DNA of 20,164 bases from a virus: the IMG/VR virus record IMGVR_UViG_3300044623_001560, positions 1 through 20,164 of that record. One strand, written 5' to 3'. Shown here piece after piece: positions 2,810-18,227 of this stretch. A model generated the notes under the pieces. The model saw nothing but the letters and a program-made list of their open reading frames with translations, made no database searches and was not told the origin of the DNA. The position numbers were made by a program, and so were the translations under genes. The first letter of the stretch is position 1, and every line of letters begins with the position of its first letter.

Positions 2810-2820
2810 GCCGTCCACTC

Positions 2821-2884
2821 TTCCCGCTGCTCTGCCGCATACCGTTCGACTCTCCCCCGAGCCGCCGGCCGCAGACAGCGGGAA
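2821..2884. repeat. long inverted repeat A (14 paired bp, 35-nt loop)
   Basis: TTCCCGCTG at 2821-2829 pairs with CAGCGGGAA at 2876-2884. After a single bulged C at 2830, TCTGC at 2831-2835 pairs with GCAGA at 2871-2875. The loop is 2836-2870. There is no T run on the plus side, so this is not an ordinary terminator. Confidence 0.75.
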
Positions 2885-2904
2885 CCCACCTCCCCCGAAA
2901 AAAA

Positions 2905-2965
2905 TTTCCTGCGTCGTGCGAGTAAGTATGGATTGCAACCGACCGTCGATACACGACGCAGGAAA
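2905..2965. repeat. long inverted repeat B (14 bp perfect, 33-nt loop)
   Basis: TTTCCTGCGTCGTG at 2905-2918 is perfectly complementary to CACGACGCAGGAAA at 2952-2965. Seven A precede the left arm (2898-2904), so on the minus strand the stem would be followed by seven T, as in a terminator, although the loop is unusually long. The arms occur nowhere else that I can see in the window. Confidence 0.85.
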
Positions 2966-2978
2966 ACCCGCGCAACGA

Positions 2979-2992
2979 CCCTTGCGCAAGGG
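2979..2992. repeat. dispersed palindrome copy 3 (centre CG)
   Basis: CCCTTGCGCAAGGG, a perfect 14-bp palindrome. It is flanked by A on the left and TTTTT on the right and lies 13 bp after inverted repeat B. Confidence 0.9.
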
Positions 2993-3016
2993 TTTTTGAG
3001 TCATTCGTGATTCAAA

Positions 3017-3030
3017 CCCTTGCGCAAGGG
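3017..3030. repeat. dispersed palindrome copy 4 (centre CG)
   Basis: AAACCCTTGCGCAAGGGTTT in full 20-bp form at 3014-3033. It lies 22 bp upstream of the next ATG and 38 bp centre to centre from copy 3. These are the only two copies arranged as a close pair. Confidence 0.9.
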
Positions 3031-3052
3031 TTTCTCAAAACTCTCTCGAATC

Positions 3053-3466
3053 ATGATAACCACCGTCCACATTTTCCACAAACCCGAAGAAGCCGAAGCA
3101 TTCATGTTCGGCATCGACCATGCTTCCCACCCACTTGACGGATGGTTCGCCACCGATCTCGGCCCCGAGCCCAACGAAGTCACCGTCCGCGACTACCGCC
3201 TAGACCCTTCCGATGCAGACGCAGACCACCGCCTAGACCCTCCCGCCGTGGTCTACGACCACCGCCTGCAAATCTCCAATCCTATCATCACCACGCTGCA
3301 GGTCGTCTCGCGCTTGCCACGGATTCCACCCAGCAAACTCCTCGAAGAACTCGAGCAAAGAGTTAGCGATATGATCTCAAACGACAAGGAAAGTGGTGAG
3401 CACAAAGATGCCACTCCGCTCGACTACGTCCGCTGGGCAATCGAAGAGATCGAAGAAAACCAATAA
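3053..3466 (+). CDS. hypothetical protein, 137 residues
   Basis: The frame opens back to a TTG at 3020 inside the palindrome, but the ATG at 3053 (MITTVHIFHKPEEAEAFMFG) is the natural start. The N-terminal half alternates strands and helices. Two short near-repeats, DYRLDP and DHRLDP, followed by YDHRLQ, occupy about residues 44-77. The C-terminal 50 residues form a charged helix (PPSKLLEELEQRVSDMI). No known family. The next gene, the sliding clamp, starts 10 bp after the stop, so the two are probably co-transcribed. Its position just after the dyad-rich region makes it a candidate replication accessory protein, by context only. Confidence 0.68.
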   Translation: MITTVHIFHKPEEAEAFMFGIDHASHPLDGWFATDLGPEPNEVTVRDYRLDPSDADADHRLDPPAVVYDHRLQISNPIITTLQVVSRLPRIPPSKLLEELEQRVSDMISNDKESGEHKDATPLDYVRWAIEEIEENQ

Positions 3467-3476
3467 ACCACACATC

Positions 3477-4637
3477 ATGTACCTATCCATTCCGTCCGCC
3501 ACCTATCGCGACTGCCTCACCACCGCCCGCACCGCCATGGTCACCCGTGGGAGCTTGCCCGTCCTTGCCATGCTCCACTTCCGCATCACCCCGGAAGCAC
3601 CCTATGTGCTGGAGGTCACCTCCACCGACCTCGACGTCTCGCTCACCCAGCTCATCCCGCTCACCGAGCCCGGCGGCCCCGGCGCCGTCTGCATTTCCCT
3701 CGCCTCGCTCACCGCCATCAAACCGGATCGCGGCACACCCGTCCGCATCGACCATGCGCCGCTCATGAAGCAGTTCAACTCGGACACCCCAGACGCCCAG
3801 ATCCTCTACGTCAAGGCCGGTCACTCCGCCGCCGCCCATCTGGAAATCCTCCCGTCCGAGGACTTTCCCCACTGGACTAACCCGCCCGGCCCCGAGGAAT
3901 TTACCTGCCTCATCCCAGGCCGCACCCTCCAGTGCATCGCGGAGTCCATCGCCTTCCAGTCCACCGAGGAGACCCGCCCCGTCCTTAACGGCGTCCTACT
4001 CTCGCCGGATGCCGGTGGCACCATCGTCGCCACCAACGGTCGGATGCTCGCCAAATGGCAAAGCAAAGTCACGCCGGAGGAAGTCATCCTGCCGAGAAAA
4101 GCCTGCAATGTGCTCACCAAGCTCGGCCTGTCCTCCGCCACCTGCGCCATCACCCGCGAGTATGATGACCACAACACCTCCATCTCGTTCCGCAGCAGCA
4201 AGTCCGTCCTACACACCAAACTCGTTCCGGGTAAATTCCCGAACTACCAAGCAGTGATCCCCGAGACGGACTCCCTCACCCTTAACTCCGCCATCACCTT
4301 TGCCGACCCCGTCGGCATCTCCTCTTGGCTCTCATCCCTGCCCGTCCCCAAAAATACCAGCTCCGTCCGCCTCTGCCCGCGCCTCCCGCACTTTGTAGAC
4401 ATCATCCACGAGCAAGGCCACCTCACCGTCACTGCCTATCTGCAAAATAATCCTCCCGAGATCGCCTTCGCTCCCAAGCTACTCGCCACCGCCCTCGCCA
4501 TCATTCCCGGCACCCTCCATCTCACCGATGATACGAGCCCCGGCGTCCTCCGCCACAGCCACGCCCTCGCCGTCCTCATGCCCATGCGCATCACCGCCCC
4601 CGCCTCCACGGAATCCAACGAATCCGCCGCCGCCTAA
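3477..4637 (+). CDS. dnaN: DNA polymerase III beta subunit-like sliding clamp
   Basis: A 386-residue protein of normal DnaN length (E. coli beta is 366). DnaN forms a ring around DNA that tethers polymerase and other partners. Several DnaN landmarks are visible: LPVLAMLHF (28-36), TRPVLNGVLL (166-175), IVATNGRMLA (183-192), KFPNYQAVIP (253-262) and the C-terminal MPMRI (368-372), each matching a conserved segment of bacterial beta clamps. A 14-residue Ser/Ala-rich tail follows. The frame opens further upstream, but the ATG at 3477, 10 bp after the previous stop, gives the normal N terminus. A clamp on a phage-like element suggests it supplies its own processivity factor. No polymerase gene is visible in the window. 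I am confident of the family, less so of full function because of divergence. Confidence 0.93.
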   Translation: MYLSIPSATYRDCLTTARTAMVTRGSLPVLAMLHFRITPEAPYVLEVTSTDLDVSLTQLIPLTEPGGPGAVCISLASLTAIKPDRGTPVRIDHAPLMKQFNSDTPDAQILYVKAGHSAAAHLEILPSEDFPHWTNPPGPEEFTCLIPGRTLQCIAESIAFQSTEETRPVLNGVLLSPDAGGTIVATNGRMLAKWQSKVTPEEVILPRKACNVLTKLGLSSATCAITREYDDHNTSISFRSSKSVLHTKLVPGKFPNYQAVIPETDSLTLNSAITFADPVGISSWLSSLPVPKNTSSVRLCPRLPHFVDIIHEQGHLTVTAYLQNNPPEIAFAPKLLATALAIIPGTLHLTDDTSPGVLRHSHALAVLMPMRITAPASTESNESAAA

Positions 4638-5388: not shown

Positions 5389-5402
5389 CCCTTGTGCAAG
5401 GG
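5389..5402. repeat. dispersed palindrome copy 5 (centre TG)
   Basis: CCCTTGTGCAAGGG followed by TTTC, 29 bp upstream of the ATG at 5432. It lies in a 152-bp gap (5280-5431) that also has a 7-bp inverted repeat, CGTGGCG (5308-5314) with CGCCACG (5363-5369), enclosing a small CCCG-GAGT-CGGG hairpin. No reading frame there convinces me. Confidence 0.9.
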
Positions 5403-6718: not shown

Positions 6719-7594
6719 ATGAGCCTACACGACAAATCACTCCTCATCACCCTCCAGCTCGCCGGCATCGCCTCCGCACGGGCGGACAAGCAAATCACCC
6801 GAGACGTGCTATTCCAGAAAAACGCCCAGTCCGATGCTGGCCGCTGGGTTTCCCGCCTCTGGACTCGCGCCGCCATGGAGCCCATCCGCGGCCTGGACTC
6901 CCAGATCCGCTCCCTCCACTACGCCAAAACCCTGCCGTGGATGGACAAGGGCGAGCGCATCATCGCCACCCGCATCTTCACCGACTACATGGCCCAGATG
7001 CGCGAACTCCGCTTCAAGCGCGAGACCCTTGTACAAGGGTTTATCGATAACTACGATGACTGGCTCGACCAAGCCCGCGAGATGCGCGGCGACTCATTCA
7101 AATACGAAGAATACCCCACCCGCTGCGCCGCCCGCGACAAGTTCAAGTTCGAGCTCACCTCCGCACCCGTCCCCCACCGGGACGACTTCCGCATCACCCT
7201 CGCCTCCGAGGACATGACCGAGATCCAAGACGCCCTCGACCAACGCGTCCAAGACGCCGAGCTCACCGCCCGCCGAGACCTCTACCGCCGCATGGCAGAT
7301 CCCGTGAGTAAACTCGTCGAGCGCCTTGCCCAGCCAGACGCCCGCTTCACCGCCGCCACCCTCAACGTCCTGCGCGAGCTCTGCGCCACCCTGCCGGACG
7401 TAAACGTCCTAGACGATCCAGAGGTGGAAATGCTCCGCGCCACCATCGAGGCCCAACTCTGCCACCTCGACCCCGAAAGCATCACCGAGTCCCGCTCCGA
7501 CCGCTCCCGCGCCCTGTCCAAGGCCAACGACATCCTCGCCAAAATGGCCCCGTGGATGGACGCGCTGGAGGACGACGAAGAAGAAGCCGCGTAA
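6719..7594 (+). CDS. hypothetical protein, 291 residues, possibly DUF3150-like
   Basis: ATG at 6719 after CCCCTAAAAAC. The protein is helical and highly charged. A central signature runs TLPWMDKGERIIATRIFTDY, then a helix to FIDNYDDWLDQAREM, then YEEYPTRCAARDKFKFEL and PVPHRDDFRITL. From memory this resembles a protein often found next to MoxR/VWA pairs in phages and plasmids, sometimes labelled DUF3150; I am not certain of the label. The MoxR and VWA genes begin 0.5 kb downstream, after a terminator and one small gene, which fits. A dispersed palindrome copy interrupts the coding sequence at 7026 and encodes TLVQGF. The C terminus is acidic (ALEDDEEEAA). Confidence 0.72.
   Translation: MSLHDKSLLITLQLAGIASARADKQITRDVLFQKNAQSDAGRWVSRLWTRAAMEPIRGLDSQIRSLHYAKTLPWMDKGERIIATRIFTDYMAQMRELRFKRETLVQGFIDNYDDWLDQAREMRGDSFKYEEYPTRCAARDKFKFELTSAPVPHRDDFRITLASEDMTEIQDALDQRVQDAELTARRDLYRRMADPVSKLVERLAQPDARFTAATLNVLRELCATLPDVNVLDDPEVEMLRATIEAQLCHLDPESITESRSDRSRALSKANDILAKMAPWMDALEDDEEEAA
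7026..7039. repeat. dispersed palindrome copy 6 (centre TA), inside a gene
   Basis: CCCTTGTACAAGGG, a perfect 14-bp palindrome inside the 6719-7594 gene, read as (A)CC CTT GTA CAA GGG, giving TLVQG. Its frame differs from that of the copies in the methylase-like and helicase genes, which give PLCKG and PLHKG. Confidence 0.9.
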
Positions 7595-7607
7595 CTAAAC
7601 GAACAAC

Positions 7608-7907
7608 ATGACCTCCTTCCGCGATATTGTCCTCCGCGTTGGTACCACCTACCTGCGCGGAGAAATCACTTGGACAACCAGCGTCGCCAAAAAAACCCGT
7701 GGCGGCAAATTCTATTCCGAGCACATCTCCCACAACTGCAAAGACGCCATCCTCCGCCACGTTTCCGAAAAGACCGTGGAAATTACACTACCGGATGGAC
7801 AAACCTTCCGCAAACAGAAACGCTGGGGTTTCGCTTTCGTCAAAGTCCGCTCGCTCAAGCCGAATGGCTACAAGATCCTACTCAAGAAACGCACCAAACC
7901 AAAATAG
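7608..7907 (+). CDS. small basic hypothetical protein, 99 residues
   Basis: ATG at 7608, 13 bp after the previous stop. The product is basic and strand-rich: DIVLRVGTTYLRGEITWTTS, a KKTRGGKFYSEHI turn, then TVEITLPDGQTFRKQKRWGF and FVKVRSLKPNGYKILLKKR. It looks like a small beta-barrel, and the net positive charge would suit nucleic-acid binding, but no family is recognised. It is the last gene before the terminator at 7940, so it closes the 5432-7907 run. Confidence 0.65.
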   Translation: MTSFRDIVLRVGTTYLRGEITWTTSVAKKTRGGKFYSEHISHNCKDAILRHVSEKTVEITLPDGQTFRKQKRWGFAFVKVRSLKPNGYKILLKKRTKPK

Positions 7908-7939
7908 GTTCTAAACGTCCCCCACAACCATTTCCCCAA

Positions 7940-7970
7940 CCCGGTAGGATTTTCCTCACCGGGTTTTTTT
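7940..7970 (+). terminator. Rho-independent terminator
   Basis: CCCGGTAGGA (7940-7949) pairs with TCCT-C-ACCGGG (7953-7963), a 10-bp stem with one bulged C and a TTT loop, followed by seven T. It separates the clamp-side genes from the MoxR block. Confidence 0.9.
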
Positions 7971-8102
7971 ACGCCCTTGCAGAAGGATCATCAAAAATGC
8001 TTATTTAGAACTTTTACCCATTATTGTAAAAACTTCCCTTTTTACTTGCCATTTTTTCCCACGTTTAGAAATTAAACCAACCAACAACCAAATAACACCA
8101 CC
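7971..8102 (+). promoter_or_regulatory. AT-rich gap, likely promoter region of the MoxR block
   Basis: This 132-bp gap between a terminator and a long gene block is much more AT-rich than the genes around it, so it is the obvious place for the promoter. It contains an inverted repeat TTTTAC-N8-GTAAAA at 8012-8031 that could be an operator, and a decayed palindrome copy at 7974-7987 (CCCTTGCAGAAGGA). TTGCAG at 7977 with TTATTT at 8001 is one weak promoter candidate. I cannot fix the -35 and -10 elements. The 30 bp before the ATG are almost free of G (ACCAACCAACAACC). Confidence 0.5.
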
Positions 8103-9098
8103 ATGACTCCATCCACACTCGAAAAACGCCTAGCCGTCGCCTTCTCAAACAATCTCAAGATTTTGATCAAGGGCGCACCAGGCATCGGCAAATCAGAAAT
8201 CGTAGAAGCCGCGGCCCGCCGCGCCAACTGCGATCTCGTCATCATGCACCCCGCCGTTAGCGATCCCACCGACTTCAAGGGACTGCCCGCCATCGTCAAC
8301 AGTAAGGCAGAATTCCTGCCTTACGGACAACTCCGCAAGCTCATCGAGGCCACCATGCCGACCGTTGCCTTCATCGACGACATCGGCCAATCCCCGCACG
8401 CCGTGCAGGCCGGACTGATGCAACTGCTCCAAGCCCGCGAAATCGACGGTCAGAAAATCTCCGACTACGTCACCTTCTGCGGGGCCACCAATGACACCGC
8501 CCACATGGCTGGAGTGCAAAGTCTCTTAGAGCCGGTCAAATCCCGCTGGCACACCATCGTCGAGCTCACCGCAGACAAAATGGAGTGGATTCAATGGGCG
8601 CACAAGAAAGGTCTCCGCGAGGAGATCCTCGCCTTCGTCTCGTTTCGTGGCATGGAAGCGCTCCACAACTTCAAGCCCACCCGCGACCTAACCAACTCCC
8701 CGTCCCCCCGCACCGTTGCCAACGCCGCCGCACTTTTCGCCGCTGGCTTCCAAGACGCGGAAACCCTCGGTGGAGCAGCAGGCGCGGGCTGGGCTGCCGA
8801 GTTCCTCGGCTTCCTCAAGGTCTATCGCACCCTGCCAGATCCCGACGAGTGCATCAAGAACCCCACCACCGCCCGCATCCCGAGCGATGGCGATTTCGCC
8901 ACCCTCTTCGCCATCGCCGTCGCCCTCAGCCTTCGTACCACCAAGGGTAACCTCGCCGCCGTCACCACCTACCTCAAACGACTACCCAAGGAGCATGAAG
9001 TCTTCGCCGTGCGCGACGCGCTCGCCCGCGAGTCATCCCTCACCAATACCGCCGCCTTCACCAACTGGGCCTCCGACAATATCAAAGTATTGAGCTAA
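8103..9098 (+). CDS. MoxR-family AAA+ ATPase
   Basis: A 331-residue ATPase. Walker A GAPGIGKS at 24-31, the MoxR-type segment SDPTDFKGLP at 53-62, Walker B VAFIDDIG at 88-95, sensor-1 region FCGATN at 125-130, a probable arginine finger in EPVKSRW (R148), and a sensor-2 stretch around SPRTVANAA near 205. MoxR ATPases usually work with a VWA partner as metal-insertion or protein-remodelling chaperones (CobS/CobT of cobalt chelation is one example). A VWA protein is encoded two genes downstream. Phages and plasmids often carry such pairs with unknown targets. First gene of a 13-gene block. It ends in a TAATG overlap with the next gene. Confidence 0.9.
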   Translation: MTPSTLEKRLAVAFSNNLKILIKGAPGIGKSEIVEAAARRANCDLVIMHPAVSDPTDFKGLPAIVNSKAEFLPYGQLRKLIEATMPTVAFIDDIGQSPHAVQAGLMQLLQAREIDGQKISDYVTFCGATNDTAHMAGVQSLLEPVKSRWHTIVELTADKMEWIQWAHKKGLREEILAFVSFRGMEALHNFKPTRDLTNSPSPRTVANAAALFAAGFQDAETLGGAAGAGWAAEFLGFLKVYRTLPDPDECIKNPTTARIPSDGDFATLFAIAVALSLRTTKGNLAAVTTYLKRLPKEHEVFAVRDALARESSLTNTAAFTNWASDNIKVLS

Positions 9099-9466
9099 TG
9101 ACCATCGAGGAAGAAACCGACGAATACCTCTTTGTGCAGCACGTCGTGGACATCCTCGGCGTGGAGAACAGTCGCCCGGACTTAGAACCGGGCGGCTTAT
9201 GGATTTGCCGCAAGTTCCGCCTGTCTTGGGGACTACGCCATGCCACCGAGCCACCCACCCTACAAGTGGGCCTCAGCTCCGCCATCCTCAACGGCCCCAA
9301 CGCCTTCCTCCCCTACGAGCTGGAAGGCCGCCTCGCCCAATGGCGCACCGTCTGGGACAACCGCGCCACCTCCATCCACAAAGACCTCACCTCCCTCGAC
9401 TTTCGCGACATCGTCGCCATCACCGCCATCCTCGGATGGAGAAAAGAATCCGACCAAACCTTATGA
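9098..9466 (+). CDS. hypothetical protein between MoxR and VWA genes, 122 residues
   Basis: Starts in a TAATG overlap with the MoxR stop and ends in an ATGA overlap with the VWA gene, so it is wedged between the two and probably made in fixed ratio with them. The sequence begins MTIEEETDEYLFVQHVVDIL. Later parts include a strand-rich middle (GLWICRKFRLSWGLRHA), an SSAILNGPNAFLPYELEGRL segment and a helical end. No catalytic motif or family is recognised. By position it could be an adaptor of the MoxR/VWA module. Confidence 0.7.
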   Translation: MTIEEETDEYLFVQHVVDILGVENSRPDLEPGGLWICRKFRLSWGLRHATEPPTLQVGLSSAILNGPNAFLPYELEGRLAQWRTVWDNRATSIHKDLTSLDFRDIVAITAILGWRKESDQTL

Positions 9467-10713
9467 ACCTCACCGACCGCCTCAAACGCACCCGCCTCAA
9501 CCTCATCATGGACGCGCCTTTCTTCGGCACGCTCGCCTTCAGGCTGGATGCCACTCTGGACGCATCCGTCACCTCCGCCATGACCGATGGCCGCACCATC
9601 AAGATCAACCCCGAGTTCGCCGCCAAGCTCACCGAACCACAGCTCACAGGTCTCATGGTCGAGTGCATCGGCCACTGCGCGATGGGCCACCTCTGGCGAC
9701 GCGGCGGCCGCGACATGGAAGGCTGGAACAAATCCGCAGACCAAGCAATCTGGGAGATCATCTCCAAGCTCCAAACAGCCACCGACGGTCGCGTGACCAT
9801 GCCTCCTAACGGCACCTGCGACCCCAAGTATAACAACCTGTCCGCCGAGGAAATCTACTCGCTGATAAAACAGGAAGAGCAACAACAACAAGGCGGCAAG
9901 CCGCCCGAAAAATACCAATCTCCCGGCGCGTTCGAGAACCCCGCGCCCGATCCCGAGTCCGAGAACCAGCCCGGAGACGACGGTGAAGGCGAAGGTGCAG
10001 GTGACAATGACGGCCAAGGCGAAGGTAAAGGCGGTGCAGGGCAAGCCCCTGCGCCGCCCGCATCTCTCGAAGAAGAGTGGAAAAGCGCCGTCACCCAAGC
10101 CGCCACCGTAGAGCGCCAGAAAAACCAAGGCACACTCCCCGCCTGGATGAAGTCGCTGGTGGACGAGCTCATCGAGCCCAAGGTACCGTGGACGGAACAC
10201 GTCCGCGAGTTCTGCCACCGGCTTTCCCGTGACGATTACTCCTTCCGCCGACCGAACCTGCGCTACCTACCCCTCGGCTTCGTGCTACCATCGCTCAAGT
10301 CCGAGCGACTCGGCCCCATCGTCGGCGCGTTCGACACCTCCGGTTCCATCTTCTGCCACCCACAAATGGTGCAAGACATTCTCTCCGAATTCCAAGGTGT
10401 CTTGGATCTCTGCCGCCCCGAGCAAATGGTACTCATGGATTGCGACACCCGCGTCCACCAGCAGGTGGAATTCTTACCCGGTGACACGCTCCTGTCATTC
10501 ATCCCCGAAGGCGGTGGTGGCACCGACTTCCGCCCGATCTTCGAAGCCATCGAACTCATGCCCGAACCACCCGCCTGCCTAATCTTCCTCACCGATCTCT
10601 GGGGCAGTTTCCCAAAGACCGCGCCAGACTATCCAGTGCTATGGGCCAACTTCGGCCACCCGCACGAGAAAGCCCCGTTCGGCACCACCATCTACGTTCC
10701 CATCGCCTGCTAA
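9463..10713 (+). CDS. VWA-like protein with degenerate metallopeptidase domain (DUF2201-like)
   Basis: Starts in the ATGA overlap at 9463, 416 residues. Residues 1-115 match the N-terminal domain of the DUF2201 putative metallopeptidases, where HExxH is expected before a GHLxRRGGRD-like segment. Here that position reads ECIGH (67-71), so the first His and the catalytic Glu are missing. Residues 135-200 are a low-complexity linker rich in Gln, Gly, Glu and Pro. Residues 285-416 form the VWA-like domain, with a MIDAS motif DTSGS (291-295), GGGGTDF (350-356) and LTDLW (376-380). VWA proteins commonly partner MoxR ATPases, so this is the likely partner of the 8103 gene. The intact metal site in the VWA domain and lost protease site suggest a binding, not proteolytic, role. 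Confidence 0.88.
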   Translation: MNLTDRLKRTRLNLIMDAPFFGTLAFRLDATLDASVTSAMTDGRTIKINPEFAAKLTEPQLTGLMVECIGHCAMGHLWRRGGRDMEGWNKSADQAIWEIISKLQTATDGRVTMPPNGTCDPKYNNLSAEEIYSLIKQEEQQQQGGKPPEKYQSPGAFENPAPDPESENQPGDDGEGEGAGDNDGQGEGKGGAGQAPAPPASLEEEWKSAVTQAATVERQKNQGTLPAWMKSLVDELIEPKVPWTEHVREFCHRLSRDDYSFRRPNLRYLPLGFVLPSLKSERLGPIVGAFDTSGSIFCHPQMVQDILSEFQGVLDLCRPEQMVLMDCDTRVHQQVEFLPGDTLLSFIPEGGGGTDFRPIFEAIELMPEPPACLIFLTDLWGSFPKTAPDYPVLWANFGHPHEKAPFGTTIYVPIAC

Positions 10714-11527: not shown

Positions 11528-13080
11528 AAAATAAAAAACAATCCATCACCCCCGCCTCCACCCAGTCCGCTGCGACTAACAGCGACCGCAAAGGACTCCA
11601 GCAATACTTCACCCCAGAGCCATGGGCCACCGCCCTCGGAGCCGCATGGCCAGAATACCGCAAAACTCTAACTGACCTCCACTGCGGCAACGGCCAACTC
11701 ATGCGCGGGCTCTCTAACGACACCACCCGCGAAGTGATGGGTAACGACCTCGATCCCACCGCCACCCTCGGCGGCCCCGTGACATGGAGCAAGTCCCACC
11801 CTGGCATGATAGCCCCCATCACCAACTGCTCCCACGGTGACATCCTCGACCTCTATCCACTTCTGCTAGAGACGGAAACCCGCTTCGACCTACTCGCCCT
11901 TAACCCACCGTTCTCGCTGAATTGGCCTGTGGAACTTTTACCTGAACCCTTGTGCAAGGGTCTAACGGGTAAGACAGTGGACAGCACCCACGCCACCCTG
12001 CGGATGATGCCCACTCTGCTAACAGAGAAAGGCGAAGGGATGCTCATCGCAAACCAAAGCACGCTGGAGCGGATCTATCAAGAACACCCCACCGACTTCG
12101 CCTCCGCATGGCTATGGGCGTCCATCCCCTCGTTCTATCCCGGCGTAGACCCGTCCACACGCATCGGGGTACTTTACTTTTCCGGCACGCCGCGCCCAGT
12201 GGGTGGGTTTGATGCACGAGACCTCGTCCATCAAGCACTCCGCCCCAAGACCGTACAGGATCTCGCCGTAGCACTCGAGATCCTCCGCTATCAATACTTC
12301 AAAAACACTTGCATCAGCGAACCCTGGGAATCCACCTCCGGCGTCTCCCGCACCTTCCTCGCCTGCACGGAGGAGATGGAACGCCGCCGCGATCCCTCCG
12401 CATCGCGGTGCAACGTCACCCTCGACATCTCCGGCCGCCTACGCACTTGGGTCTCCGCATTCCAAGAACGCACCCACACCATCCCCAGCGAGCTCGCGGA
12501 CTTCCTACGCTCCATCAACCGCAAGCACCCGCTGGAACTCACCCTCCAGCGCGGTGCCCGCCAAGCTCTCCAGCATGTCATCGACTGTGGGATCTGGTCC
12601 ATCGACACCCTCGCCGACGACACCCTCCGACAAGCCATCTCCAACTACGACCGCGAACGCGCCCCACTCACCCCCGTCAGTGACGTGCAACGCATTGGAT
12701 GGATCGACGATGCGGAGGAACTTCTCTGCGAGAAAGACTTCCTCCATTTCCGCACCGGCCACCGCTACCCACTCACCACCGAGACCATCAACTGGAAGAA
12801 GACCGAGAAGCGTCCCCGCTACCATGCCGGCAAACGTGATACCGAGGAGGTACTCGTCCGCGGCACCGACCTGCGCCTCACCCTCCATCCGCAAGACGGA
12901 AAGCCCGTCCACTTCATCTTTAACCCGGACAAGGTGGATACCACGCAGGAAACCCACTCGCTAGAAACCCTCGCCGCCCACTTCGCCCTACCCGTGGTGG
13001 TAGACATCACCTCCCTCAAGGCGGACCAATACGCCGCCAACCTCGCCCTGCTAGATGAACTCGAAACACTAACACCATGA
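11524..13080 (+). CDS. N6-adenine DNA methyltransferase-like protein
   Basis: A 518-residue protein starting at the ATG in the ATGA overlap at 11524. The frame extends back to 11494 but the overlap is the better start. QQYFTPEPWA (26-35) followed by DLHCGNGQL (51-59) fits the cofactor-binding motif I of methylases (DxxxGxGxL). NPPF (127-130) is the catalytic motif IV of N6-adenine methylases. The C-terminal 370 residues are unlike ordinary methylases and may recognise DNA or a partner. No restriction nuclease gene is adjacent, so an orphan or regulatory methylase is more likely than a restriction-modification system. A palindrome copy at 11947 encodes PLCKG just after NPPF. Ends in an ATGA overlap at 13077. 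Confidence 0.82.
   Translation: MKNKKQSITPASTQSAATNSDRKGLQQYFTPEPWATALGAAWPEYRKTLTDLHCGNGQLMRGLSNDTTREVMGNDLDPTATLGGPVTWSKSHPGMIAPITNCSHGDILDLYPLLLETETRFDLLALNPPFSLNWPVELLPEPLCKGLTGKTVDSTHATLRMMPTLLTEKGEGMLIANQSTLERIYQEHPTDFASAWLWASIPSFYPGVDPSTRIGVLYFSGTPRPVGGFDARDLVHQALRPKTVQDLAVALEILRYQYFKNTCISEPWESTSGVSRTFLACTEEMERRRDPSASRCNVTLDISGRLRTWVSAFQERTHTIPSELADFLRSINRKHPLELTLQRGARQALQHVIDCGIWSIDTLADDTLRQAISNYDRERAPLTPVSDVQRIGWIDDAEELLCEKDFLHFRTGHRYPLTTETINWKKTEKRPRYHAGKRDTEEVLVRGTDLRLTLHPQDGKPVHFIFNPDKVDTTQETHSLETLAAHFALPVVVDITSLKADQYAANLALLDELETLTP
11947..11960. repeat. dispersed palindrome copy 7 (centre TG), inside a gene
   Basis: CCCTTGTGCAAGGG inside the methylase-like gene, read as CCC TTG TGC AAG GGT, giving PLCKG (residues 142-146), shortly after the catalytic NPPF. 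The flanks keep the final T but not the full AAA/TTT. Confidence 0.9.
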
Positions 13081-13590: not shown

Positions 13591-15102
13591 ATGAAACTAA
13601 CTAACGAAACCGTATCCCTGCTAGACCCGAAGATAGTCCTCATTTCCAAGCTCAACACCCGCCAGCCCAAGAAGGCCGACGTCGCCGAGCTAATGGAAAC
13701 CATCAAGAACTCCGGCCAGATCACCCCCGCCGTCGCCCGCCCGCATCCGACTAAGCCCGGCCACTACGAGCTCGCCACCGGCGCCCGCCGCAAGGTGGCC
13801 TGCGAGGCACTCAAGATCACCCTCAAAGTCGTCATCCGCGAGATTCCGGATGCGGAGTTCGAGGACATGATCCTCATCGACAACCTCCAACGCGAAGACC
13901 CCGATCCGATGTCGGAAGCCACCCTCATCGAGCGCCGCCTCGCCGCTGGCGCGATGCCCACCGAGATCGCCGCCAAGTACGGTAAGAGCGAGACTTGGCT
14001 AAAGCGACGGATGAAACTCACATGCCTCACCACCGCCGTCCGCGAGGCATGGAAACCAGAAGGCTACATGGCTCACTACACCACCGAGATGATGGAATAC
14101 GTCGGCACCCTGCTAGAACACGATCAAGACGAACTCGCCGCCAGCCGCTGGGACCACGAAGTCACGCTCTCCGCACTCATTCACTCGACCACCCGCTCCG
14201 GCCATGACTTGGCGGATGTGGCGTGGCTGGACGACCCCTGCTCATTCATCGCCGGATGCGGCCCCGGATGCGCCACCGACACCTCAAAGGGACTCTTCCC
14301 AGATCCCGACTCGGCCTGCGGCACCTGCCTCAACGGAGCCTGTTTCAAGAAACGCCAGTCCCTCGTCCGCACCGCGAAAATGTCCGACGTCCTCGCAGAC
14401 CGCCCCATCACCGACTTCATCGTCTTTAGCTCTCGCGGCTACGGCGACACGTTCTCCCACGACGGCAAGGAGGCGAAATGCTTACCCTCTTGGAAGCTCA
14501 AGGAACACTACACCATCGCCAAGAAATCCGGTCCTAACACTCTACTAGGACTCGACGTGGGCGACCTCGACCAACCCGCCGTGATCCACATCAAGCGCAA
14601 AGTGGACAACAACGGCACCACCGCAGATGCCACCGTCGGCAAGAAAGAATCCCGCGAAGACCGCCTCACCAGCAAACGCCTCTCCGTGATGAACCAACTC
14701 ATCGACAACGAAGTCATCGACGCCAAGATACCCACTGGCGTCTCCATGCTGCGGCTCGCCGCAGCGTTCGGTATGAACACCTCCCGCAACATAGCGGACG
14801 AAACGGCATGGCAATCTCTCTACAGCGGTGGAAATGAAATGACGGGTCTCGGCTGGAAAGGCGACCAAGGCACTGCGGAGCAAGTGATCTGGGATACCAT
14901 CCGCCCTATCCTCCGCAAGCGTCTGAATTATCAAACCGGCAAGGATTTGCTCCGCGAAGAACGCCGTACCAATATGGTCCGCACCGCGATGCTACTCGGC
15001 ATGGACTACGAAGCGGAGTGGCAGAAAATCTGCACCAAGGATGTGACCGTGCCGAAAAGCTGGGGACCAGGAATTGATCCGGTAACGCTGAAAGCAGCAT
15101 GA
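13591..15102 (+). CDS. ParB/Srx-type DNA-binding protein with Cys cluster
   Basis: A 503-residue protein. The ParB N-terminal domain is visible: LNTRQPKK (21-28), the CTP-binding segment TGARRKVACE (63-72, where ParB usually has GERR), and DNLQRED (97-103). A helix-turn-helix follows (MPTEIAAKYGKSETWLKRRM, 122-141). A cluster of six Cys at 217, 223, 227, 243, 246 and 251 includes CFKKR, as in some large phage and plasmid ParB-family proteins, and may bind metal. The rest is helical and unassigned. Such proteins bind a short palindromic site and act in partition or regulation. The dispersed palindrome is an obvious candidate site but this is inference. No ParA gene is visible. Ends in an ATGA overlap at 15099. 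Confidence 0.88.
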   Translation: MKLTNETVSLLDPKIVLISKLNTRQPKKADVAELMETIKNSGQITPAVARPHPTKPGHYELATGARRKVACEALKITLKVVIREIPDAEFEDMILIDNLQREDPDPMSEATLIERRLAAGAMPTEIAAKYGKSETWLKRRMKLTCLTTAVREAWKPEGYMAHYTTEMMEYVGTLLEHDQDELAASRWDHEVTLSALIHSTTRSGHDLADVAWLDDPCSFIAGCGPGCATDTSKGLFPDPDSACGTCLNGACFKKRQSLVRTAKMSDVLADRPITDFIVFSSRGYGDTFSHDGKEAKCLPSWKLKEHYTIAKKSGPNTLLGLDVGDLDQPAVIHIKRKVDNNGTTADATVGKKESREDRLTSKRLSVMNQLIDNEVIDAKIPTGVSMLRLAAAFGMNTSRNIADETAWQSLYSGGNEMTGLGWKGDQGTAEQVIWDTIRPILRKRLNYQTGKDLLREERRTNMVRTAMLLGMDYEAEWQKICTKDVTVPKSWGPGIDPVTLKAA

Positions 15103-15200: not shown

Positions 15201-17194
15201 AACTCAAGAAATTCCAACGGGATCACTATGCCCGCGCGGCACTGGTCAAGGGGCTGATGCTGGCTCACGAACAAGGCACTGGCAAGTCGTTCGCAGCGTT
15301 TTGCATTCCCTACGTCTGGCGGGCACGGCGGGTACTCATCGCCGCACCGGTGGACTTGCATGACCAACTCCGCAAGGAGGCGATCAAGCAATTCGGAATC
15401 GCGCTGCCAACCATCAAGTCGATGGACGATGTGAGACTTCATCGGCTCGATCAAATCGCGAAACCCTTGCACAAGGGGCAAATGCCTAAGTACTATCTGG
15501 TAGGGTACGAAGCTCTCACGCGTAACGGCGCGGACGAGTGGCCTGCCTTCGTGGATGCCAAGGGCAAGGTGGTGATGCGCCACCGCGAACGGGCACGACT
15601 GATCGAGGCCAAGACATTCGCCAAGGAGCATGTGCTTTCCCGCTTGCTAGGGACGAAGGTGGATTTCTCTCCCTACATGCAAGGAGTGGGGGCAGAGCAG
15701 CAAGGCATCACCTGCGTCTGGCATCCCTCGCTGGCCCGCGAGCTCAAGCAACTCGAAGGCCGCGGCGCGGGATTCGACTGCGTGGTGCTGGACGAGGCGA
15801 CGATGATCCAGGGCGACTCAAAGATTTCCCGTGGGGTGACGATCCTCAACCCAGAATACCGTCTACTGATGAGCGGAACCCCTGCCAAGAATAAGTTAGA
15901 AAGCATCTTCACACTGGCATGGTGGGCGGCAGGTGGCAGCGAGACGCCTACGGCGCGCTGGCCCTACCCGCGCGATGGCAAGGATACCTTCGCCAAGCAT
16001 CACCTCGAAATCGACCGCTACATATCCCGCGAGGAAGACCAAGCCGCCAAGCTCGGCAAGCGCCGCGCCTCGGTGCGGATGATCAAATCCACAGCCCGCG
16101 TCTGCAACGTCCAACGTCTTTGGCGCTTGCTGGCCCCGGTGACGCTGCGGATGCGTAAGGCGGATTGCGGCGAGGCAATCGTCGCGAAGACGGTACGCCC
16201 CATCGAATGCCAGATGGGCGCGGCTCAAGCGGCAGTGTACAAAGAACATTTACAAAACCGCCCGACCTCACCAGCCGGGATGCCGGGAGCGAAACTGTCC
16301 GGCTTGGCCCGCATCGGGATGCAGCTCACCAACTTGCGGATCGCCTCGGTCTGCCCAGACTCACCCTCGCTGGACGAGGTGATTTCCATGGCCCATCCGG
16401 CACGCAAGAGGTCATGGACGCCATGGACACCCAAGCTGGCGACGGTGCTGTCCTTGACGGCAGACCTGCTAGACAATGGCGAGCAAGTGATGATCGGCTC
16501 GCCGTTCACCCGTTTTAACCAAACCCTTTACCAACTTCTCACCGAGGCTGGGGTATCCGTCCTGCTGCTGGACGGCGAAATCTCCCCGACTCAGCGCGGC
16601 TTGTTGGCGGAGCAATTCAAGAACGGCAACACCGCCGTGCTCATCGCCGGATACGCCTCGATGGGGCGAGGTCACTCGTTCGAGAATTGCGCCCACCTAA
16701 TCGCGGTGGGCTACCCATGGGCCTACGATGTGTTCGCGCAATTCGTGGACCGGATCTGGCGGCTCACCTCGCTGCGACCGATCACGGTCTATCCGGTCAT
16801 CACCACCGGCTCGATAGAGGAGCGGATGCGTGACCTTTTCTCCGACAAATCCGACACCGCACAACTCATGCTCGACGGCAAACTCTTCCCCGACACGGTG
16901 GACGACATCGATCCGGAGCGACTGCTGGCAGAAGCCTTCGACGCCTTCAAGGCGGCCGGACCCGGCGCGGACGAGAGCTTGCTGGAATCCGCCTGGCCCT
17001 CGCTGGCGAAGCGGCTCGGCTGGAGCCAAAAACGCTACCTCGAATGGCACCCGCCCATCGTCACGCCGAAAGTGACGGCAGAGGACATCGCCCGTGCGAA
17101 CGAGGGAATCAAGATCGACCCGATATTTGACTTTGCAGTGGCTAAAGAACGACTAAAACAACAGTTTATAAACAGACAAAAACCAAAACTATGA
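15197..17194 (+). CDS. SNF2-like DEAD/H-family helicase
   Basis: A 665-residue protein with ATG at 15197. A GTG at 15134 in frame would extend it, but the ATGA overlap with the microprotein favours 15197. Walker A HEQGTGKS (24-31), motif II VVLDEAT (196-202), motif III LLMSGTPAKN (223-232), and near the C terminus the SNF2 motif V and VI region (AGYASMGRGHSFENC, then QFVDRIWRLTSLRP). SNF2 proteins translocate on duplex DNA. As a phage-type member it may act in replication, remodelling or defence. Codon use changes here: in 16621-16680 there are 20 C and 19 G, against 27 C and 11 G in 12421-12480 of the methylase-like gene. It carries palindrome copy 8. Ends in an ATGA overlap at 17191. Confidence 0.9.
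   Translation: MKLKKFQRDHYARAALVKGLMLAHEQGTGKSFAAFCIPYVWRARRVLIAAPVDLHDQLRKEAIKQFGIALPTIKSMDDVRLHRLDQIAKPLHKGQMPKYYLVGYEALTRNGADEWPAFVDAKGKVVMRHRERARLIEAKTFAKEHVLSRLLGTKVDFSPYMQGVGAEQQGITCVWHPSLARELKQLEGRGAGFDCVVLDEATMIQGDSKISRGVTILNPEYRLLMSGTPAKNKLESIFTLAWWAAGGSETPTARWPYPRDGKDTFAKHHLEIDRYISREEDQAAKLGKRRASVRMIKSTARVCNVQRLWRLLAPVTLRMRKADCGEAIVAKTVRPIECQMGAAQAAVYKEHLQNRPTSPAGMPGAKLSGLARIGMQLTNLRIASVCPDSPSLDEVISMAHPARKRSWTPWTPKLATVLSLTADLLDNGEQVMIGSPFTRFNQTLYQLLTEAGVSVLLLDGEISPTQRGLLAEQFKNGNTAVLIAGYASMGRGHSFENCAHLIAVGYPWAYDVFAQFVDRIWRLTSLRPITVYPVITTGSIEERMRDLFSDKSDTAQLMLDGKLFPDTVDDIDPERLLAEAFDAFKAAGPGADESLLESAWPSLAKRLGWSQKRYLEWHPPIVTPKVTAEDIARANEGIKIDPIFDFAVAKERLKQQFINRQKPKL
15464..15477. repeat. 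dispersed palindrome copy 8 (centre CA), inside a gene
   Basis: CCCTTGCACAAGGG, preceded by AAA and followed by G instead of T, inside the helicase gene. It reads CCC TTG CAC AAG GGG, giving PLHKG (residues 90-94), between the Walker A and motif II regions. Confidence 0.9.
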
Positions 17195-17562
17195 AAAAAC
17201 GAGAACTTACCCTCGAAGATTACGCGTTGATAGATACACTCTTCGATGACCCCAAAGCGTGGAACAACTGGCTCGTCAGCCAAGGCTACGAACCTTTCCT
17301 CGACTTACCGGAATGCCTCGCGCTCATCCCTAAGGACAAATGGATGGAAAATACCAAGGTCGTCACCCCGCCTGCCGTGCAAAAGTATCTGGACAGCGGC
17401 GACATCCTCACGCCGCACACCATCGAGATGATGGAGTTAGCGATTGAAAAAGCGTATGGCGTGGAAGCCCCGTGGTACATCACCGCGGTGACTCCCTACT
17501 ACAATGCAGCGAATGGAGAATCGCCAACGGTGGAGTATTTCTACTTGGGGAGGGAATCATGA
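17191..17562 (+). CDS. hypothetical protein, 123 residues
   Basis: Starts in the ATGA overlap with the helicase and ends in an ATGA overlap with the BRO gene at 17559-17562. The sequence begins MKKRELTLEDYALIDTLFDD. A helix with WNNWLVSQGYEPFLDLPECL follows, then AVQKYLDSGDILTPHTIEMM, and it ends in aromatic-rich strands (WYITAVTPYYN). The helical pattern looks like a small globular protein. No family recognised. Confidence 0.7.
   Translation: MKKRELTLEDYALIDTLFDDPKAWNNWLVSQGYEPFLDLPECLALIPKDKWMENTKVVTPPAVQKYLDSGDILTPHTIEMMELAIEKAYGVEAPWYITAVTPYYNAANGESPTVEYFYLGRES
17549..17553 (+). promoter_or_regulatory. Shine-Dalgarno sequence of the BRO gene
   Basis: GGAGG lies 5 bp before the ATG at 17559, inside GGGGAGGG. 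It is the only strong ribosome-binding site I noticed in the window and so sets this gene apart from its neighbours, whose leaders are A/C-rich. Confidence 0.8.
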
Positions 17563-18212
17563 TCATCCAATTCAACAACGAAGAAGTCCGAACGGTCATA
17601 TTCAAAGGTGAAACGTGGTGGGTGGTAGGTGACGTTTGCAAGATCCTTAGTATTAGAAATCCGAGCCAAGCAATTACACGAATTCACCCGGATGACCTCA
17701 TTTTAAATGAGGTCATCGACGCTCTTGGCAGACCCCAAAAGACAAATCTCGTCTCCGAATCCGGTTTATACGACCTAATTTTACAGTCCCGAAGTCCCAA
17801 AGCTGCCACTTTTCGGCGCTGGGTGACAAAAGAAGTGCTGCCCTCAATTCGAAAAAACGGCTTCTATTCTGCCGACAAAACGCTGGCCTGCCGGTTTCTT
17901 CAGCTTACTCACGCATTTCAATATGCCAACATGCTACCGCACAGCTCGCATAAACTGGCGTTAAAACTCATCAAAATTTCAAGTGATGACGAGCTTGGTG
18001 ACGTGGTTAAATTGGTAGAAAACTTGATTGGCGACGGCGGAGATCCGTACCTCGTAAGCAAGATCGAGCGCGAGCTTCCACGCCGTATCAAGATGGCCAA
18101 AATGGCAAGGGCTGAACAAATGGCCGCTGATTTTCTCAATAATGTTAGCGAAAACGATGCCGCCGCGTTGCGCTGCATGCTTGAGCAACAACCACCTTGG
18201 ACGAACGAGTAA
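17559..18212 (+). CDS. BRO-N domain phage regulator/antirepressor-like protein
   Basis: A 217-residue protein with ATG at 17559 in an ATGA overlap and a strong Shine-Dalgarno sequence. The BRO-N signature is clear: FNNEEVRTVIFKGETWWVVG, then DVCKILSI (25-32), NPSQAITRIHPDD, then SESGLYDLILQSR (66-78) and KAATFRRWVTKEVLPSIRKN (81-100). BRO-N domains bind DNA, and such proteins often act as antirepressors or regulators in phages. The C-terminal 110 residues are helical and of no recognised family. GC is about 43-45% here against 67% in 4501-4560 of the clamp gene. Together with the different ribosome-binding site this suggests separate acquisition. A 27-bp palindrome lies inside the coding sequence. 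Confidence 0.9.
   Translation: MIIQFNNEEVRTVIFKGETWWVVGDVCKILSIRNPSQAITRIHPDDLILNEVIDALGRPQKTNLVSESGLYDLILQSRSPKAATFRRWVTKEVLPSIRKNGFYSADKTLACRFLQLTHAFQYANMLPHSSHKLALKLIKISSDDELGDVVKLVENLIGDGGDPYLVSKIERELPRRIKMAKMARAEQMAADFLNNVSENDAAALRCMLEQQPPWTNE
17691..17717. repeat. 27-bp palindrome inside BRO gene
   Basis: GATGACCTCATTT and AAATGAGGTCATC are perfect 13-bp arms around a single T. It encodes DDLILNEVI. At this length it is unlikely by chance in a window of this size. A self-regulatory binding site for the BRO protein is one reading; a cruciform or a sequence-duplication scar are others. Confidence 0.8.
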
Positions 18213-18213
18213 A

Positions 18214-18227
18214 CCCTTGCACAAGGG
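18214..18227. repeat. dispersed palindrome copy 9 (centre CA)
   Basis: CCCTTGCACAAGGG, preceded by AAA (18211-18213, the last two bases of the BRO stop and one gap base) and followed by T and then CA of the minus-strand terminase stop. It fills almost the whole 15-bp gap between the two convergent genes, so it could serve as a shared transcription end. Confidence 0.9.

Follow-up and report, generated by a model that had tools for sequence, protein, structure and literature searches.

The window, W, comprises an entire viral record (20,164 bases). Its left part carries, all on the + strand, a gene for a 346-aa protein (1439 to 2479; here, protein 1439), a gene for a conserved 59-aa protein that serves as the marker of a syntenic block (2630 to 2809), a small conserved open reading frame (3053 to 3466), and a gene for a DNA polymerase III beta-like sliding clamp (3477 to 4637). 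Gene 1439 is followed by a strong intrinsic terminator (14-bp stem, T7; 2534 to 2563). Farther along lie a conserved trio (6719 to 10713) consisting of gene 6719 and the genes for a MoxR-like AAA ATPase and a DUF2201/VWA protein, and, on the + strand, a gene for a 503-aa ParB-like protein (13591 to 15102) that has a ParB_N domain and relatives among ParB, Noc, and KorB. The 59-aa gene and the small reading frame are separated by a gap of 243 bp, in which two hairpins precede two palindromes.

Both of the 14-bp stems described in the first-pass annotation are present. Hairpin 1 (2822 to 2884, + strand) pairs over 9 bp (2822-2830/2876-2884) and, beyond a 1-nt bulge, a further 5 bp (2832-2836/2871-2875) around an inner loop of ~34 nt, and the fold of 2820 to 2910 has a z score of -5.3. 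Hairpin 2 (2905 to 2965) has 14 perfect bp (2905-2918/2952-2965), a loop of 33 nt, and a fold z score of -3.8; perfect 14-bp inverted repeats with loops of ≤40 nt had a mean of 0 in shuffles of the window. Because seven T residues follow hairpin 2 on the minus strand, it may act as a terminator on that strand. Neither hairpin is present in the orthologous gap of six relatives (G001, G007, G021, G022, G023, and G024), and a short-word BLAST search with the hairpin region found no match in any relative examined. We therefore treat them, judging by sequence, as specific to the W phage, and the idea that they form a pair of structured RNAs loses its footing, as neither stem was found conserved or compensated in relatives. 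In agreement with the annotation, which recognized no RNA family, an Rfam scan of the gap gave no match; a tRNA scan found none, and a sigma-70 promoter scan gave nothing useful. The proposal of a replication origin fares no better: GC skew has no turning point at the gap or elsewhere in W, and the skew extremes of G001 lie away from the orthologous region.

The two palindromes, at 2979 to 2992 and 3017 to 3030 (38 bp start to start), are exact, and they belong to a family dispersed over the whole 20-kb contig. CCCTTGYRCAAGGG occurs in nine exact copies, compared with 0 in shuffles, with no one-mismatch intermediates. Copy 1 (CCCTTGCACAAGGG; 287 to 300) is extended into a long, terminator-like stem ending in T5 (276 to 311), and a copy at 14720 in G009 is extended similarly. 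The start of copy 2 (1385 to 1398) precedes that of gene 1439 by 54 bp. Copies 3 and 4 are the doublet of the gap, upstream of the clamp operon, and their 18-nt extended forms are an inverted repeat of each other. Copy 5 (5389 to 5402) is intergenic, and copies 6, 7, and 8 lie within gene 6719 (6719 to 7594; copy at 7026 to 7039), a methyltransferase-like gene (11947 to 11960), and a helicase gene (15464 to 15477). Copy 9 (18214 to 18227) fits between the convergent stop codons of a BRO-type gene and the terminase gene. The former, a BRO-N/anti-repressor-type gene (17544 to 18212) that ends just before the copy, fits a repressor-controlled temperate phage. Sites are spaced about every 2 to 4 kb along a temperate phage genome. 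A literature search found no paper containing the palindrome, and the doublet, searched as a DNA pattern in viral contigs, had no match outside W.

Relatives were reached via the ATPase, ParB, and terminase genes and via the palindrome itself; most of the records are metagenomic fragments. The same site is present in 18 exact copies in G001 (64.9 kb; reversed control, 0) and in 10, 7, 4, and 2 copies in G007, G009, G011, and G017, respectively. These five records and W share genes with one another and constitute one phage lineage. The consensus of 50 exact sites is the 16-bp palindrome RCCCTTGYRCAAGGGY, in which the central two bases are always YR (CG in 32 sites, CA or TG in 17, and TA in 1). 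The variable base of the half-site is C in 81% and T in 19% of cases and is chosen independently in each half-site, which is the pattern expected of a homodimer reading two half-sites.

By our own simple gene model, most sites are intergenic: 65 of the 88 placeable sites in ten records, where ~18 are expected. The enriched gaps are convergent as well as codirectional and divergent, and sites located where two genes converge speak against a role as promoter operators only. Three locations are used repeatedly: the region upstream of gene 1439; the interval that separates the 59-aa gene from the clamp gene; and the terminase 3′ junction, which is occupied in W, G001, G009, G021, and G023. The emphasis that the first-pass annotation placed on the gap holds in one respect, in that three relatives also have a doublet in the interval from the 59-aa gene to the clamp operon, with a spacing of 24 bp in G007, 20 in G021, and 31 in G022, compared with 38 in W; taken as a whole, its interpretation is partly supported. 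The site in gene 6719 has the same nucleotide offset (307) in W, G001, and G007; a synonymous-codon test in that gene was uninformative (4/5 versus 101/167). The site in the methyltransferase-like gene is read in one frame in W and in another in G001 and G007; therefore, it is the DNA that is kept and not the protein.

Further phages were found by alignment of the ATPase and the 59-aa gene. Many of these distant temperate relatives carry a differing palindrome of their own that is equally dispersed: ACCCTTACGCGTAAGGGT in G021, ACCGTTACGTAACGGT in G022, CCCTTRCGYAAGGG in G023, ACACTTACGTAAGTGT in G024 (where the right arm also occurs as GCGT), ATCCTTACSGTAAGGAT in G040, AGTCTTAYNRTAAGACT in G041 and G047, ATCCTTAYNRTAAGGAT in G043 and G044, and TCATTACGTAATGA in G048. 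Their common core is TTRC-(0-2 bp)-GYAA, and the outer bases and the spacing differ between lineages. In all, about nine site types were seen, in versions of 16, 17, and 18 bp. The copies within one genome agree, so that all have changed together. That each relative repeats its own version of the site suggests a phage-made protein that binds all of the copies. In G023 (L111 and L112), 8 of the 9 sites are mixed, combining the half-sites CCCTTA and CCCTTG more often than independent half-sites would give. Two more distant phages that lack gene 1439 have 13-bp palindromes, GTTAGAnTCTAAC in six copies (L095, G028) and GCTAGAnTCTAGC in three (L096, G029), whose form we take to be like that of the KorB operator.

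The best candidate for such a binder, we infer, is protein 1439. In a set of 65 loci, gene 1439 was found at 14 of the 14 loci with the palindrome by HMM (13 of 14 by BLAST) and at 0 of 48 that have the 59-aa gene and no TTRC-core palindrome, the latter including L140/L180 and L135, which repeat other sequences; outside both groups are L157/L158 (G049/G050), with the gene and no palindrome, and L139, with a weak match to the gene. The sequences repeated at L140, L180, and L135, which have the 59-aa gene and lack gene 1439, are GTACCCTAKAGGGTGT (four to five copies) and CGCGCAACGNTGCGCG-like (six copies). Gene 1439 is present at all site-bearing loci that cover its position, and in 12 of 13 genomes a site lies 41 to 165 bp upstream of its start (within 175 bp), although the sequence of the site differs between lineages. 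The exception is G048, which has sites, none of them just upstream of gene 1439. Counting one genome per site type, the chance of such an upstream site in 8 of 9 lineages is ~1e-5 under an intergenic-only null that assumes 18% intergenic DNA and ignores shared descent. The four complete-looking genomes share structural genes, the clamp, the 59-aa protein, gene 6719, gene 1439 (in G041 via HMM), and little else. The association of gene 1439 marks a clade, so that any clade-wide gene is a candidate; the 59-aa protein was excluded because many phages that lack such sites also have it.

The predicted structure of protein 1439 (mean pLDDT, 88) has an all-helical N-terminal domain, a long coiled coil, an acidic/Ala-Pro linker, and a C-terminal helical part, with an HTH-like helix pair predicted at residues 62 to 68 and 73 to 90. 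The putative recognition helix includes residue 78, which is Ser where the genome has a TTG core and Asn where it has a TTA or TTR core; this split represents one evolutionary event and is therefore suggestive only. Some results stand against protein 1439 as the binder. By sequence, it belongs to no recognizable DNA-binding family or other known family, and its predicted fold has no significant match in the PDB and no informative one in BFVD, where the sole significant match is a homologue. Furthermore, G049 and G050 have the protein and no comparable palindrome.

Another possibility is that the palindromes are operators or stoperators of a fast-evolving immunity repressor missed by sequence search, such as the product of an HTH-like gene near the integrase in G001 and G009. 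The clade is temperate, as tyrosine integrases in 7 of 13 records indicate. Known phage repressors, such as those of L5/cluster A and SPbeta, also have many intergenic sites and lineage-specific specificity. However, the HTH-like gene of G001 and G009 did not turn up throughout the clade and lies near one site rather than near a cluster of operators, and the weak HTH_3 traces in G001, G009, G022, and G048 are below the cutoff and in different short frames. We consider a hidden repressor of this kind unlikely.

The ParB-like protein offers a second alternative, under which the sites would be centromeres similar to parS or to KorB operators, to which a CTP-dependent clamp would bind in partition or in silencing over long distances. 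The 16-bp palindrome does resemble parS. The recognition helix of ParB is identical in W and G007, which have the same site, and changed in G021, which has another one. Using a six-member profile, adopted because the G021 ParB, found by tblastn, had escaped a Pfam ParB_N search, we detected ParB in W, G007, G021, G040, G041, G043, and G047, and G049/G050 have neither ParB nor sites. On the other hand, the profile had no match in G001 (18 exact sites) or G048 (8 sites), whose exact terminal overlaps of 59 and 16 bp, respectively, point to complete circular assemblies, and in G023, which has 9 sites, ParB is reduced to a C-terminal scrap. Since these genomes keep their sites without an intact ParB, it was rejected as a required partner of the sites. 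No ParA (PF13614) was matched in seven records, several of them fragments. The partition site suggested by the first-pass annotation is therefore only half upheld: the palindromes resemble the dispersed site of a partition or KorB-type protein, but two complete-looking genomes that bear sites have no ParB, and the seven records gave no match to ParA. A role for ParB as the reader is improbable. Where the relatives have ParB, G001 encodes a Mom-type DNA modification protein and a DNA polymerase X-like protein (L032, 4128 to 4871; L029, 16 to 621). VarioGold, Aval, and a Myxococcus plasmid, which encode related ParBs, have no comparable rare palindrome; the plasmid has low-complexity repeats.

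The palindromes could also act as structures in RNA or DNA, either as bidirectional terminators or as recombination sites at module boundaries. The sites at convergent gene ends in five genomes and the terminator-like extension of copy 1 fit this reading, and a palindrome in G023 (L111, 6211 to 6340) lies at the breakpoint where another gene replaced the N-terminal part, and thus most, of ParB. However, the arms are invariant within a genome and the bases that would form the hairpin loop are conserved too, unlike those of terminators; a T tract is missing at most sites; the G022 sites follow a separate, proper terminator; and three genomes have the site within gene 6719 at the same position. 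A structural role thus seems distinctly improbable. It is very improbable indeed that the phages have copied a chromosomal motif that a protein of the host recognizes. The motifs do vary from phage to phage, perhaps along with the host, but among 84,980 species genomes, which may not include the host, the 18-bp form turns up only as single copies, 19 in total, close to the ~15 estimated for chance.

We favor the explanation that the palindromes are sites for a dimeric DNA-binding protein that the phage encodes and that acts on the whole genome, with protein 1439 as the best candidate, and regard it as evenly balanced between right and wrong; both the binding of protein 1439 and its effect are inferred. 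The clade is temperate, and no canonical HTH_3 repressor was found in it above the cutoff, so that an unusual repressor is wanted; a master regulator of this kind would be the simplest reading. A protein 1439 dimer would contact two half-sites (RCCCTTGY in W), with ACCCTTGCGCAAGGGT as the candidate target DNA. From the site upstream of its gene it would repress or tune its own promoter, and by occupying the other one to two dozen sites, mostly between genes, it would silence or organize the phage genome. A site before a gene would act as an operator, and one at convergent gene ends or inside a gene could block transcription or serve as an architectural anchor. The doublet at 2979/3017, which precedes the clamp (replication) operon, may act as a double operator bound cooperatively.

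A change in the specificity of a regulator normally needs a matching change of its sites. We propose tentatively, and with a little more doubt than trust, that gene 1439 represents a previously undescribed family of global phage DNA-binding proteins that reads a dispersed palindrome whose copies throughout the genome have, on several occasions in a single temperate clade, changed together with the protein, giving each phage a private silencing or organizing code. Related phages with several site versions at matching positions and a single candidate protein make it directly testable how a global regulator and its 7 to 25 sites evolve together. If the proposal is true, master regulators of a new class would be defined in phages, and immunity groups among these phages would be predictable from sequence alone.

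By analogy with known systems, the role is likely that of a genome-wide phage silencer or organizer comparable to stoperators, SPBRE/MrpR, or KorB. The repressors of temperate cluster A mycobacteriophages (L5 and TipsytheTRex) have more than 20 sites genome-wide, in promoters and short intergenic gaps (PMC9283540), and the W clade likewise has many, mostly intergenic copies across a temperate phage genome. However, L5 stoperators are asymmetric 13-bp sites that follow the direction of transcription and are recognized by a monomer, whereas the W-clade sites are perfect palindromes found also at convergent ends, and candidate protein 1439 is unrelated to any known family. SPBRE of SPbeta is a repeated element in the intergenic regions of one phage that is bound by an unconventional master repressor, MrpR (PMC10516654). 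It is a 15-bp motif with a recombinase-fold reader, and no such reader is implied in the W clade, where the site differs between related phages.

The O_B operator of plasmid RK2 is a palindrome with about a dozen dispersed copies. Its reader, KorB, is a ParB-family regulator that can silence at a distance from sites on a mobile genome (PMC11790492), whereas ParB is dispensable for the presence of sites in the W clade. Similarly, a ParABS system would share the 16-bp palindromic site of the W clade (RCCCTTGYRCAAGGGY), but ParB is not always encoded with the sites and ParA was not found in the seven records searched. KfrA of plasmid RA3, a transcriptional autoregulator of ~345 aa, has an N-terminal HTH region and a long alpha-helical tail (PMC7783346), and protein 1439 as modeled resembles it in size, in the predicted N-terminal HTH-like region, and in the helical tail. 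The KfrA N-terminal domain had no Pfam match in seven members of the protein 1439 family, and no sequence match between the families was found. The KfrA operator consists of five 9-bp direct repeats at its own promoter; upstream of gene 1439, a palindrome that may be a binding site lies in 12 of the 13 genomes. Although at least one defining feature failed for stoperators, ParABS, and KfrA, the W-clade system would, by analogy, work in the manner of stoperators, SPBRE/MrpR, KorB, and, as regards the architecture and putative autoregulation of protein 1439, KfrA.
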